NCBI RefSeq assembly: GCF_027364955.1
Contig: NZ_DAHXOI010000001.1
Span: forward strand, 1 to 64,000
Source of the DNA: Ferrimicrobium sp.
Lineage (GTDB): Bacteria > Actinomycetota > Acidimicrobiia > Acidimicrobiales > Acidimicrobiaceae
Direction: 5' to 3'
DNA length: 64,000 nucleotides
The translations under genes were made by a program, and so were the position numbers. The notes below the pieces were generated by a model. It saw only the letters and a program-made list of their open reading frames with translations. It did not search any database and was not told the DNA's origin. The number at the start of each line of letters is the position of its first letter. Position 1 is the stretch's first letter. Of this stretch, positions 4,796 through 9,119 are shown piece by piece.

Positions 4796-6469
<1,674 letters not shown>

Positions 6470-6482
6470 TCACGGGTTCTTT

Positions 6483-6524
6483 ACGGCAATGGGCGGCACG
6501 CTATGTGTCGCCCATTGCCGTTTT
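6483..6524 (+). terminator. Rho-independent terminator after groEL
   Basis: A perfect 13-base stem (ACGGCAATGGGCG at 6483-6495 pairing with 6509-6521) around a 13-base loop, followed by a TTTT run from 6521. It begins 14 bases after the groEL stop, and so isolates the CIRCE-groEL unit from the hemQ unit. Confidence 0.88.
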
Positions 6525-6661
6525 CTGCCCTGTCGTAGTAGGGTTGGCCGGCGAGCGATTGTTGCTACCGCCGGTGGGGTTCCTAAGGTAGAGGTAGCGG
6601 ATTTGCCCCGCAGGTGTGGTAGCCGGGCGGTGCAGGGTTGGACGCACAAGGAGAAGATAGC

Positions 6662-7408
6662 ATGGTAAGAGATGAGGAAATGATGCAGCCAGAGGAGCCC
6701 AACCAAGGAGCGGATGAACTGGAGATTCCGTGTTCGGAGGTTACCGAGGGACTCAACGTGTTGCATCTCTTTGGGGACGCAACCAAGGATTTCGATCCGG
6801 AACTTGCGACAGCGAGGGTCAAGCAGGCCATTGAGCGTGGGACCCAGGTATTGACGGTTGCCACATTAGGTCATCGTTGTGAGGTCGCCATCATGGCACT
6901 CGATCGTGATCTTCTCGGGCTACGACGTCTTCAGTTGGATTTACGACGTGCTGGCCTGGTCTTTAGTGATTCATTCTTCTCCATCACTGAAGTCTCCGAG
7001 TATGCACGTAATATCACCGAGGAGCGTAAGCGACCCCGTCTTTATCCGAAGTTGCCACCCAAAGGTAAGGATGCGTGGTGTTTCTACCCAATGGCTAAGC
7101 GTCGTAACGTTAGTCAAAATTGGTATGCACTTGGCTTCGATGAGCGCGAGCACCTCATGGGAGAACACGGTGCGTCGGGGCGAAAATTCGCCGGTCGTGT
7201 CACCCAGTTGGTTACCGGTGCGACTGGTGTGAGTGATTGGGAGTGGGGCGTGACGCTATTTGCTCGCCATCCAGATGATTTGAAGGATGTGGTCTATACG
7301 ATGCGCTACGACGAGGCGTCGGCAGTATACGCAGAGTTCGGCCCGTTCTACGTAGGAGTCCTCCAAGATCCTGAGGTAGTCTTCTCCTCCCTCTTCGCTG
7401 ATAATTAG
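6662..7408 (+). CDS. hemQ: Coproheme decarboxylase HemQ (chlorite dismutase family)
   Basis: Last step of the coproporphyrin-dependent heme pathway: two oxidative decarboxylations convert coproheme to heme b. The 248-residue protein has the HemQ hallmarks: the FYPMAKRR motif, whose tyrosine (residue 142) matches the reactive tyrosine of the family; ERE-LM-EHG with the probable heme-ligand histidine at 169; and WEWGVTLFA. ATG at 6662 follows AAGGAG with an 8-base gap; an upstream in-frame TTG is less likely. It leads a compact unit with larE, a NIL-domain gene and an unknown gene. HemE and HemY lie at 15-17.6 kb. Confidence 0.93.
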   Translation: MVRDEEMMQPEEPNQGADELEIPCSEVTEGLNVLHLFGDATKDFDPELATARVKQAIERGTQVLTVATLGHRCEVAIMALDRDLLGLRRLQLDLRRAGLVFSDSFFSITEVSEYARNITEERKRPRLYPKLPPKGKDAWCFYPMAKRRNVSQNWYALGFDEREHLMGEHGASGRKFAGRVTQLVTGATGVSDWEWGVTLFARHPDDLKDVVYTMRYDEASAVYAEFGPFYVGVLQDPEVVFSSLFADN

Positions 7409-7450
7409 TCCTTGGGGACACTCGAAAGCGCTGGAAGGAGGATAGAGAGC

Positions 7451-8311
7451 ATGGCGGTGGATGTAGACACGTCCCTGATCGATGATAAAATCAGCGAAGT
7501 TCGACGCTGGTTTTTGGGTGTCGGCAACGTGGTGGTGGCCCTCTCTGGTGGGGTCGATTCTGCTGTCCTTGCGGCGATGGCGAACAGGGCGCTCGGTGAT
7601 CACGCTCTGGCGGTGACGGCCGTTTCTCCGTCGTTATCGCAAGAAGAACTCGAAGGCGTTCGAGGCTTTGTGCAGCGAGAGTCGTTGAACTTCATGGAGG
7701 TTCACACTGACGAGATTCAAGACCCGAACTATGTCCAGAATGCACCAGACCGATGCTACGTCTGCAAAAGTCATCTTTTTGAGGAGCTTTTGCCCATTGC
7801 GCTTCATCGGAAGGCGACGATTGTCGTTGGGACCAACCTTGACGATCTGGGTGACTACCGTCCGGGCTTGCGAGCTGCGGATGAGTTTGGAGTTGCTTCG
7901 CCCTTTGTGGAGTGTGGGGTAGACAAGTCGATGATCCGGTCGATAGCTCGCTCGTTAGGGCTCGGGGAGCTTGCGGATAAGCCAGCTTCGGCCTGTCTAG
8001 CCTCACGCATTCCCTATGGGGTCCCCGTCACGATCCAGCGATTGAGTGCTGTCGAGCGCCTTGAGCGATTTCTTCATCGCCTTGGCCTCTCGGTCGTACG
8101 AGTACGCCACCATGGCGACATCGCGAGAATCGAGCTACCTCCGGAGATGTTCCAGCGGATGCTGGCTAACCGTGAGCAAATTGTCGCTGAAGCCGAGCGA
8201 CTCGGATTCGTCTATAGTACGCTCGATTTAGGAGGATTCCGGAGCGGTTCGTTGAACCGGGTGCTCAAGGGGGCAAGCGGCGATGAAGGTGATCGTCAAA
8301 CTTTGGTATGA
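7451..8311 (+). CDS. larE: LarE-family ATP-dependent sulfur transferase
   Basis: PP-loop enzyme related to LarE, which adenylates a substrate carboxylate and donates sulfur (in lactate racemase, to the nickel-pincer cofactor precursor). The 286-residue protein shows SGGVDS at 32-37, GTNLDDLGDYRPGLRAA at about 127-143, and DKPASACLASRIPYG at 176-190. It has C102 and C105 in a CxxC plus C182, a three-cysteine pattern like the LarE variants reported to hold a [4Fe-4S] cluster and use it for sulfur transfer, rather than the single sacrificial cysteine. AAGGAGG precedes the ATG at 7451. No larB or larC is in the window, so the real acceptor may be different. The 3' end overlaps the next gene by 29 bases. 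Confidence 0.88.
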   Translation: MAVDVDTSLIDDKISEVRRWFLGVGNVVVALSGGVDSAVLAAMANRALGDHALAVTAVSPSLSQEELEGVRGFVQRESLNFMEVHTDEIQDPNYVQNAPDRCYVCKSHLFEELLPIALHRKATIVVGTNLDDLGDYRPGLRAADEFGVASPFVECGVDKSMIRSIARSLGLGELADKPASACLASRIPYGVPVTIQRLSAVERLERFLHRLGLSVVRVRHHGDIARIELPPEMFQRMLANREQIVAEAERLGFVYSTLDLGGFRSGSLNRVLKGASGDEGDRQTLV

Positions 8312-8522
8312 AGGTGCGCTCATCGGTGAGCCTATTATCGCGAAACTGGCAGGGAACTACGGTGTGACTGCCAATATCAAGCGTGCAAACGTCGAAGACG
8401 ACCTCGGATGGATTCTTTGCACGTTGGAGGGCGATGGGAACTCAGTGGCTGCTGCGACTGATTGGCTGATATCCATTGGAGTAGAGGTGGAGATGGTTGA
8501 GGGGGACAATGACACTCAGTGA
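8283..8522 (+). CDS. Stand-alone NIL-domain protein
   Basis: A 79-residue ferredoxin-like fold protein of the NIL family (named after the N-I-L motif at the end of MetN ATPases). The start MKVIVKLWYEGALIGEPII, then GVTANIKRANVED, then LCTLEGD match the pattern of a beta-alpha-beta ACT-like domain; NIL domains elsewhere are fused to methionine importer ATPases or to ferredoxins involved in sulfur insertion. It has only one cysteine, so no Fe-S site is likely. It starts inside the 3' end of larE (29-base overlap) and its own end overlaps the next gene by 14 bases, implying coupled translation with the sulfur transferase. Confidence 0.8.
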   Translation: MKVIVKLWYEGALIGEPIIAKLAGNYGVTANIKRANVEDDLGWILCTLEGDGNSVAAATDWLISIGVEVEMVEGDNDTQ

Positions 8523-8934
8523 ACCGGTGACCCAAGAGGAGTTTGGGAGAATTTCAGCAGCATTCCTCGATGGTCTCACGATGGCGTTGCCGGCGTACTT
8601 TGCGAGAGTCGAGGCAGAGCTGGTTCGCGAGGGAGAGGTCGATCTCGACTGGCTCACGGAGCTACAGAGTCAAGTTGAGTCGGAGTTGGCGCTACTCCTT
8701 GGGGCGCCAGCGGAGACGCAGCGAGAGCCTCCGGTGGGGCTGATTCGCCGCCGGATGGTGGAAGGGCTGGCCGAAAACGGTTGTGCTGCGAGCATGCCAG
8801 CCCTGCAGCGGCGTGGCCTCCTGCCTGCTAGTGCCGTGGATATCGATTCGGATCTGTCCGCGCTGCACCTCGCCTGGGGCGTAGCCAAGGCCCGCAGGTT
8901 GCGCTCCCTGACTGAAGAACCGACGCGCGGCTAA
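8509..8934 (+). CDS. Unrecognised protein in the hemQ-larE unit
   Basis: A 141-residue soluble, acidic, mostly helical protein that I cannot assign. It starts at the ATG at 8509, directly behind GAGGGGG, overlapping the NIL gene by 14 bases, so it is almost certainly translated as the last gene of the unit. The N-terminal half (to about residue 70) looks amphipathic and rich in Glu and Leu; the C-terminal part contains RRMVEGLAENGC and DIDSDLSALHLAWG. There is one cysteine. No signal peptide or membrane segment. It meets the next, convergent gene with a 4-base stop overlap. Confidence 0.7.
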   Translation: MTLSEPVTQEEFGRISAAFLDGLTMALPAYFARVEAELVREGEVDLDWLTELQSQVESELALLLGAPAETQREPPVGLIRRRMVEGLAENGCAASMPALQRRGLLPASAVDIDSDLSALHLAWGVAKARRLRSLTEEPTRG

Positions 8935-9119
8935 TTATCCTTGCGTTTTGGGATCTCCCAGCCAATTTTGGTCACTCGCGTGCGTGCCTCATAGAAGAGG
9001 CAATCAGGTGGACAGGCGAACGGAAGATCAAGGTTGGCTTTGAGCCTGCACCTTTGAATGCGCTCTCCTGAGGGGAGTGTTTGTAGAACGTAGTGTTTGC
9101 AGGTCTCTTGAATGGCCAC
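8931..9119 (-). CDS. Small four-cysteine protein, probable metal binder
   Basis: A 62-residue protein with cysteines at 7, 24, 36 and 40 (C-x16-C-x11-C-x3-C) in the contexts ETCKHYV, QRCRLKANL and FACPPDCLFYEAR. Four well-spaced cysteines in so short a chain suggest a zinc or iron-sulfur site. Similar short proteins with a CPxxC-LFxE-like ending seem familiar from other actinobacteria, but I cannot name a function. ATG at 9119; it is divergent from the Nudix gene (50-base gap) and its stop overlaps the stop of the unknown gene of the hemQ unit by 4 bases. Confidence 0.65.
   Translation of the reverse strand: MAIQETCKHYVLQTLPSGERIQRCRLKANLDLPFACPPDCLFYEARTRVTKIGWEIPKRKDN

Follow-up and report, generated by a model that had tools for sequence, protein, structure and literature searches.

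The NIL domain is a regulatory, methionine-binding domain in MetN (3dhw, 3tui, 3dhx). NIL domains are also found in the homocysteine proteins MA1822 and DvMF_0262, which according to the available text of PMC5764234 carry a ferredoxin domain and work with DUF39 in a sulfur-transfer setting. LarE, the sulfur transferase of nickel-pincer nucleotide (NPN) synthesis, is described in two types: the sacrificial enzyme of L. plantarum (5udq, 6b2o), which gives up Cys176 and has no CxxC, and the [4Fe-4S] enzyme of Thermotoga maritima (available text of PMC9283937). Here we analyse a locus that encodes both families side by side, at positions 6662 to 8934 of a 64,000-nucleotide stretch (the window) that forms the start of contig C1 in the draft genome of a Ferrimicrobium sp. 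(3.08 Mb, 84 contigs, 97.6% complete). Its four genes encode HemQ, LarE, a stand-alone NIL-domain protein and an all-helical protein of an unannotated family. An initial annotation of the window proposed that the last three may carry out a sulfur transfer, expressed together with heme synthesis, to some substrate other than the lactate racemase cofactor. Its reading of the genes was accurate and its placing of the NIL protein in sulfur transfer gained some support, but the idea of another substrate is not supported. We consider it likely, with a probability of about 0.7, that LarE acts in the known NPN pathway, that the NIL protein is a conserved partner tied to cysteine sulfur, that HemQ is a syntenic neighbour and that the helical protein is a neighbour with no proven link. 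The arrangement of larE with a stand-alone NIL gene is widely kept and, as far as we searched, undescribed: a literature search, with subscription papers mostly outside it, returned no paper joining "NIL domain" with "LarE" or "cysteine desulfurase", and none containing "NIL domain-containing protein".

The larE gene (7451..8311, forward strand) encodes 286 amino acids that score 294.8 bits against TIGR00268 (cut-off 150), placing the protein in the curated family. Although the reading frame is open from 7412, the gene starts at the ATG at 7451, which has a ribosome-binding site (aaggagg) in front of it, so the cysteine numbers of the initial annotation, a CxxC of C102 and C105 together with C182, are correct. 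Counted from 7451 the cysteines are C102, C105, C155 and C182, of which C155 is common to only part of the LarE family. The SGGVDS loop, a form of SGGxDS, and the CxxC-C cysteines (C102, C105, C182) are shared with T. maritima [4Fe-4S] LarE, and the third cysteine, as in that enzyme, is one place off L. plantarum Cys176 (comparisons drawn from the available text of PMC9283937). Like the window LarE, all 80 further LarE loci examined have CxxC-C, so this set gives no contrast with the sacrificial type. With the L. plantarum enzyme the window LarE has in common the family and the residues that bind the phosphate of the precursor P2CMN. S185, R186, R217 and R219 align with L. plantarum S180, R181, R212 and R214, and S185, R217 and R219 are invariant in the 25 LarE rows of alignment A3, the window copy included; the phosphate-binding roles of these serine and arginine residues are given in the accessible part of PMC9283937. 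Unlike T. maritima LarE, the window LarE is known from sequence alone, and it is encoded with hemQ and the NIL gene, larB-larC being on another contig.

LarB and LarC are encoded in the same genome as the window LarE, both above their NCBIfam cut-offs. Whole-genome searches found one LarC (298 bits), on contig C39, where LarC1 reached 126.6 bits (cut-off 90) and LarC2 96.8 bits (cut-off 50). Directly before it lies larB (NF033503, 208.9 bits, cut-off 175), with a possible overlap of up to about 50 bases that depends on the start codon. The only PF09861 protein of the genome, on contig C4, scores 874 bits (cut-off 740) with the NCBIfam model named for NPN-dependent hydroxyacid isomerases of the LarAH14/15/16 type. 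It resembles the solved LarA-like proteins 9q2u (E 1e-36) and 9q3j (E 6e-30), which the available text of PMC12611868 describes as enzymes with one catalytic histidine. A second candidate LarE frame, near 106.5 kb of C1, reached only 42.8 bits with TIGR00268 and is MnmA-like by eye. The statement of the initial annotation that larB and larC are lacking went uncontradicted in the window but is wrong for the genome; linked larB and larC elsewhere, which it had itself named as evidence against its proposal, were looked for and found, adjacent on C39. Because larB-larC and a LarA homologue of a family named as NPN-dependent are in the genome, no substrate other than the NPN precursor is needed. 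Such a substrate is unsupported, and LarE as a non-NPN enzyme was rejected on finding these genes. Since they are present and the precursor-binding residues are kept, the window LarE most likely makes NPN by the known [4Fe-4S] route. Judged by its family and the published pathway, it is probably an ordinary enzyme of NPN synthesis. LarB of C39 would make the pyridinium biscarboxylate P2CMN; LarE would adenylate the P2CMN carboxylates and swap them for thiocarboxylates, with sulfide drawn from a [4Fe-4S] cluster presumably held by C102, C105 and C182; LarC of C39 would insert nickel, and the LarA homologue on C4 would use the cofactor.

The search for LarE covered 98 genomes (own, genus, family and order), 85 of which have one over the cut-off; LarC, LarA, the NIL protein and the helical protein were sought in 80 of the 98, 18 same-family genomes being left out. 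LarE and LarC are associated across these 80 genomes, with both in 61, LarE only in 6, LarC only in 5 and neither in 8 (Fisher 9e-5). Neighbours were counted at 80 larE loci of the order, from 79 genomes, and the counts are lower bounds because some loci lie at contig ends: within about 4 kb of larE there was a larB at 5, a larC at 6, a hemQ at 61 and a NIL gene at 55. A larC lies about 3 kb from hemQ-larE-NIL in G083 (locus L112) and in the named locus L189. Among the matches listed in a search across many phyla were 80 named LarE loci, of which 30 have larB and/or larC within 1.5 kb and five have a NIL gene within 0.7 kb of larE, all five in Actinomycetota. The actinobacterial loci L169, L174 and L178 have larE-larB-larC in a row, and in the LarE tree their copies fall inside the order's clade, beside hemQ-larE-NIL copies (branch support 92), which ties this clade to NPN synthesis. 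The window copy groups with 9 others from the same family. The NIL-linked larE copies are clustered without forming a single clade, as would fit one gain or several. A cysteine desulfurase-like gene is found within the fetched stretch at six of the 80 named loci listed (L173, L185, L200, L211, L217, L218), which fits a LarE fed from cysteine; no NIL gene was seen at these six. A PF09861 LarA-like gene is kept in four genomes in which neither an over-cut-off LarE nor LarC was found (G058, G060, G067, G074). Either the cofactor is obtained otherwise there, or the LarA family is not always NPN-dependent.

The gene that follows larE (8283..8522, forward strand) encodes 79 amino acids that score 49.5 bits against PF09383 (gathering score 24), which makes the product a NIL-domain protein. 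The NIL profile matches the NIL domains of MetN in sequence (E 5e-10), and the same domains are the nearest solved folds to its structure model (predicted local distance difference test score, pLDDT, 87.9; Foldseek E 2e-6, template-modelling score 0.83). It is not itself a MetN, as there is no ATP-binding cassette (ABC) ATPase domain and the MetN model gives 17.7 of 499.7 bits. Unlike MetN, it stands alone, carries a NIRRA-type motif, which reads NIKRA in the window copy, and has its gene beside larE or sulfur genes. With MA1822 and DvMF_0262, as described in the available text of PMC5764234, it has in common a NIL domain in a sulfur-transfer setting, but it consists of NIL only, with no fused ferredoxin domain, whereas those proteins have one and work with DUF39. 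A cysteine in the motif GWIVC occurs in 58 of 61 NIL loci of the order and in none of 27 from the wider phylum. A persulfide relay through this cysteine was rejected on that distribution and is unlikely as a general NIL function; to judge from the gene neighbourhood and the predicted fold, an adaptor or a sensor of sulfur amino acids fits better.

A profile built on 36 NIL proteins (alignment A2) found the NIL gene in 44 of the 80 genomes of the order. In 41 of these it shares a contig with larE and lies beside it, a distance of 15 to 235 bp (median 48) separating the matched stretches; these cases include a larE fragment at a contig end (G062) and a NIL gene split over two contigs (G071). The other three genomes have it on another contig, 2.3 kb from the helical-protein gene (G070), at a contig edge (G038), or with no LarE (G063). 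The initial annotation had held that its proposal would fall if the NIL and helical-protein genes were not conserved next to larE in relatives; when this was checked, the adjacency of the NIL gene was found to be kept, in other families of the phylum as well. The NIL gene is a common, not required, partner of larE.

To extend this to the phylum, 198 genomes were drawn evenly, of which 79 match the NIL profile. The best 30 of the 79 were fetched, and after removal of three of the order and of L248-L250 (135-147 amino acids, taken for NIL/ferredoxin proteins by length) 24 remained. NIL is beside larE in 14 of these 24, on the same strand in 12. In G157, G221 and G263 it is within about 2 kb of groEL, with LarE elsewhere in the genome, and in seven genomes LarE was not found. 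Three LarE-less genomes of one family (L232, L233, L240) have the NIL gene between cysE and cysK (TIGR01172 over the cut-off in the one tested); L242 has Rrf2-NIL-NifS-type desulfurase-IscU, all on one strand; L241 has an IscU-MnmA fusion beside NIL; and the neighbours in G265 fit no recognised setting. Richer clusters that include larE were seen in one family, where L262 (162-5633) reads Rrf2-CysK-TusA-ThiS-ThiF-JAB-larE-NIL-CysE, with five genes known by Pfam name and Rrf2 and CysE by similarity. L261 has a related Rrf2-CysK-(TusA)-ThiS-ThiF-(JAB)-larE-NIL-CysE cluster, the full set being seen in L262. These clusters suggest a thiocarboxylate carrier as a possible sulfur donor of LarE, for which TtuB, the donor for TtuA, offers a comparison. 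Because the NIL gene is conserved by larE and elsewhere lies beside cysE/cysK, a desulfurase or IscU-MnmA, its product looks like a small sulfur-linked accessory, and the larE-less copies by cysteine and sulfur genes lend some support to the sulfur link drawn in the initial annotation.

Gene order, families, motifs and co-occurrence were observed directly; from neighbourhood and fold only, we infer a role for the NIL protein. Its gene probably shares a transcript with larE, and the protein would be a conserved partner of LarE among some Actinomycetota: an ACT/ferredoxin-like adaptor or sensor connecting LarE, and in other genomes a cysteine desulfurase or cysteine synthesis, with the cysteine sulfur supply. 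A more specific form of this, which we think less likely than not, is that the NIRRA-motif stand-alone NIL proteins may be an undescribed sulfur-mobilisation accessory in Actinomycetota that docks mostly on [4Fe-4S] LarE, elsewhere on a desulfurase/IscU-MnmA or on cysteine synthesis, and that hands on sulfide or sets the flow of cysteine sulfur.

A number of observations weigh against such a partnership. As 26 of the 67 LarE genomes of the order have no NIL gene, the association of NIL with LarE by presence is modest (p 0.015 over the 80 genomes, 0.08 over those at least 90% complete); since in addition NIL and LarC are not significantly associated (p 0.14, 80 genomes), the NIL protein is not needed for NPN. 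No NIL gene was found at five larE copies of the order that lie beside larB (L081, L084, L098, L100, L111), nor at the larE-larB-larC loci L169, L174 and L178. It also occurs without LarE, lying between hemQ and nudix in G063 and in the order hemQ-NIL-helical-protein gene in G113, where no LarE was found. Outside the order LarE is present in 17 of 24 NIL genomes versus 25 of 56 NIL-free genomes (p 0.05), the 56 being a selection, mainly those with low handle numbers, out of 119. In two of the 14 pairs (L224 and L228) larE and the NIL gene are on opposite strands. The NIL gene is also on the opposite strand beside cysE, cysK and IscU-MnmA, so these are neighbours and not operons, and only L242 is operon-like; three of the five non-LarE sulfur settings come from one family, and the independent cases are few, perhaps three lineages for these settings. 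The GWIVC cysteine, being absent from the wider-phylum loci, is no general sulfur carrier.

These points bear differently on the other explanations. That the NIL protein is a small MetN-like sensor of methionine, cysteine or a related ligand, controlling LarE or the operon and not passing sulfur, is quite possible, if short of an even chance, and is one of the two forms that a partner tied to cysteine sulfur could take. The match of its sequence and predicted fold to the MetN NIL domain, the lack of a cysteine conserved across the NIL family and the presence of other copies near cysE/cysK and an Rrf2 regulator all suit a sensor, but no DNA-binding or enzyme domain is attached. We find it doubtful that groEL-hemQ-larE-NIL-helical-nudix-PAC2 is simply an old block kept by descent, whose members have unrelated jobs. 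The block does include groEL, nudix, PAC2 and further genes at many loci, the NIL and helical-protein genes sometimes occur with no larE in the genome, and the weak association of NIL with LarE by presence is what such a block would give; yet the NIL gene stays with larE where there is no hemQ or groEL within about 4 kb (L085, L087, L092, L110) and accompanies it in other families of the phylum in different surroundings (L224, L228, L238, L243).

The proposal of the initial annotation, sulfur transfer by LarE, NIL and the helical protein to a non-NPN substrate alongside heme synthesis, could appeal to the conservation of the gene group and to three genomes at least 90% complete in which LarE was found without LarC (G053, G071, G088). 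These three are drafts, however, and with LarE and LarC co-occurring, the precursor-binding residues kept in LarE, and the genome encoding LarB, LarC and a LarA homologue, we regard it as very unlikely. Equally hard to favour, and in our view highly improbable, is a part for the NIL protein, with or without LarE, in making homocysteine or methionine by an unknown route in this family. According to the available text of PMC5764234, the traditional, DUF39 and protein-thiocarboxylate routes to homocysteine are all missing from Acidimicrobium ferrooxidans, and a NIL/ferredoxin protein is required for methionine synthesis in Desulfovibrio; the window NIL protein, though, has no ferredoxin domain, and NIL is mostly found where LarE is.

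All four genes of the locus lie head to tail on one strand at the positions given by the initial annotation, and the overlaps it reported are exact: 29 bases between larE and the NIL gene (8283-8311) and 14 between the NIL and helical-protein genes (8509-8522). Upstream, groEL (4838-6469) is followed by a hairpin with a T run (6483..6521, forward strand), probably its intrinsic terminator. In an RNA fold of 65 nucleotides (6476-6540) the hairpin has a 17-bp stem and a 5-nucleotide loop, with the T's after it, and a stability of -36 kcal/mol (z -7.69) that none of 200 shuffles equalled. It is absent from the list of a separate pattern scan, and a promoter scan gave 1 match against 1.2 expected. 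Because the hairpin and T's separate groEL from hemQ, hemQ probably starts its own transcription unit; given the overlaps and this terminator-like structure, the genes from hemQ to the helical-protein gene are probably read as one transcript.

HemQ (6662..7408, forward strand, 248 amino acids) is a coproheme decarboxylase-like member of the Chlor_dismutase family (PF06778, 147.7 bits, cut-off 25), and it would carry out the last step of coproporphyrin-dependent heme synthesis. It has PF06778 and the CFYPM...NWY region in common with Geobacillus and Listeria HemQ, but it falls below the cut-offs of the NCBIfam HemQ models, which are named for hydrogen peroxide-dependent heme synthase (204.2 of 253 bits for NF008913 and 52.3 of 235 for NF042928). 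It aligns with the solved 1vdh (E 6e-39), muconolactone isomerase-like by name, and 1t0t (E 6e-37), a HemQ; we take the solved HemQ-type chains aligned to be of the Thermus, Geobacillus and Listeria kind. The window HemQ is nearer the Geobacillus/Thermus type than the actinobacterial model, though its relatives are Actinomycetota. The coupling to heme synthesis proposed in the initial annotation appears weak: 56 of 80 loci have hemQ no more than 700 bp from larE, but L226 and L237 have groEL-larE-NIL without it. Outside the order, none of the 14 larE-NIL pairs showed a hemQ beside it, ten of them having been followed out to about 4 kb as far as their contigs reached, and hemQ therefore reads as a frequent but dispensable neighbour of larE, a matter of local synteny. 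Elsewhere in the order the upstream genes include FdhD (F25), a ThiS-like gene (F16) and a PALP gene (F17), each named by the Pfam match of one member. F16 and F17 are present in 12 loci each, and in its 12 loci the PALP enzyme, threonine synthase-like, precedes groEL-hemQ-larE. The ThiS-like protein, which also precedes groEL-hemQ-larE (at L069, 8344-8640 on the reverse strand, and at other loci of the order), ends in GGAF, which suggests a carrier that would need trimming.

The last gene (8509..8934, forward strand) encodes a protein of 141 amino acids that matches nothing in Pfam or NCBIfam at E <= 1; four more members of its family, compared with Pfam only, gave no significant match. The family alignment (A1) has a C-terminal WGxAKA, and the model of the window protein has five helices (pLDDT 95.0, predicted template-modelling score 0.87). 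No clear relative was found among the fold matches listed: the best Foldseek E was 0.69 and the best VIA Z 7.4, at 5.9 A over 128 residues, in the range of chance helical bundles. At E <= 0.001 its profile matches 38 of the order's 80 genomes, G048 marginally (6.5e-4). The gene directly follows larE or the NIL gene in the window's genus and several families, the order larE-NIL-helical-protein gene being seen for example in the family member G012 (L053), and elsewhere is some genes off or away from larE. Its presence is uncorrelated with that of NIL (p 1, 80 genomes). It is kept in six genomes where larE is elsewhere or was not found (G043, G047, G058, G065, G068, G082), and at L122, L124 and L126 it is near a GlnD gene (Pfam name from one member). 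A role as a dedicated lar gene was rejected on these grounds, and the part in sulfur transfer given to this protein by the initial annotation has faded to a weak link, because members of its family occur apart from larE too. Further families of the order have larE and/or the helical-protein gene upstream of a GlnD gene (L089, L122, L132, L134, L135), with an ammonium transporter gene before GlnD at L089 and L122 (Pfam names from one member each).

On the 3' side follow a small open reading frame on the opposite strand, then a nudix gene and then a PAC2 gene. The small frame (8931-9119, reverse strand) encodes 62 amino acids with four conserved cysteines (CKHY...RC...CPxxC), is kept in 26 loci including the window and has no Pfam or NCBIfam match; its product is likely a metal-binding small protein.

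In the available text of PMC9283937, the evidence for the sulfur supply of [4Fe-4S] LarE is an in vitro experiment that used cysteine and the IscS of E. coli. Because its gene keeps to larE across many families and is elsewhere near desulfurase and cysteine genes, the stand-alone NIL protein is a direct candidate for this supply step or for its control. An NPN system in E. coli, described in the available text of PMC11796402, exists in which the NIL protein could be tested. If this reading is true, stand-alone NIL proteins would gain a role.

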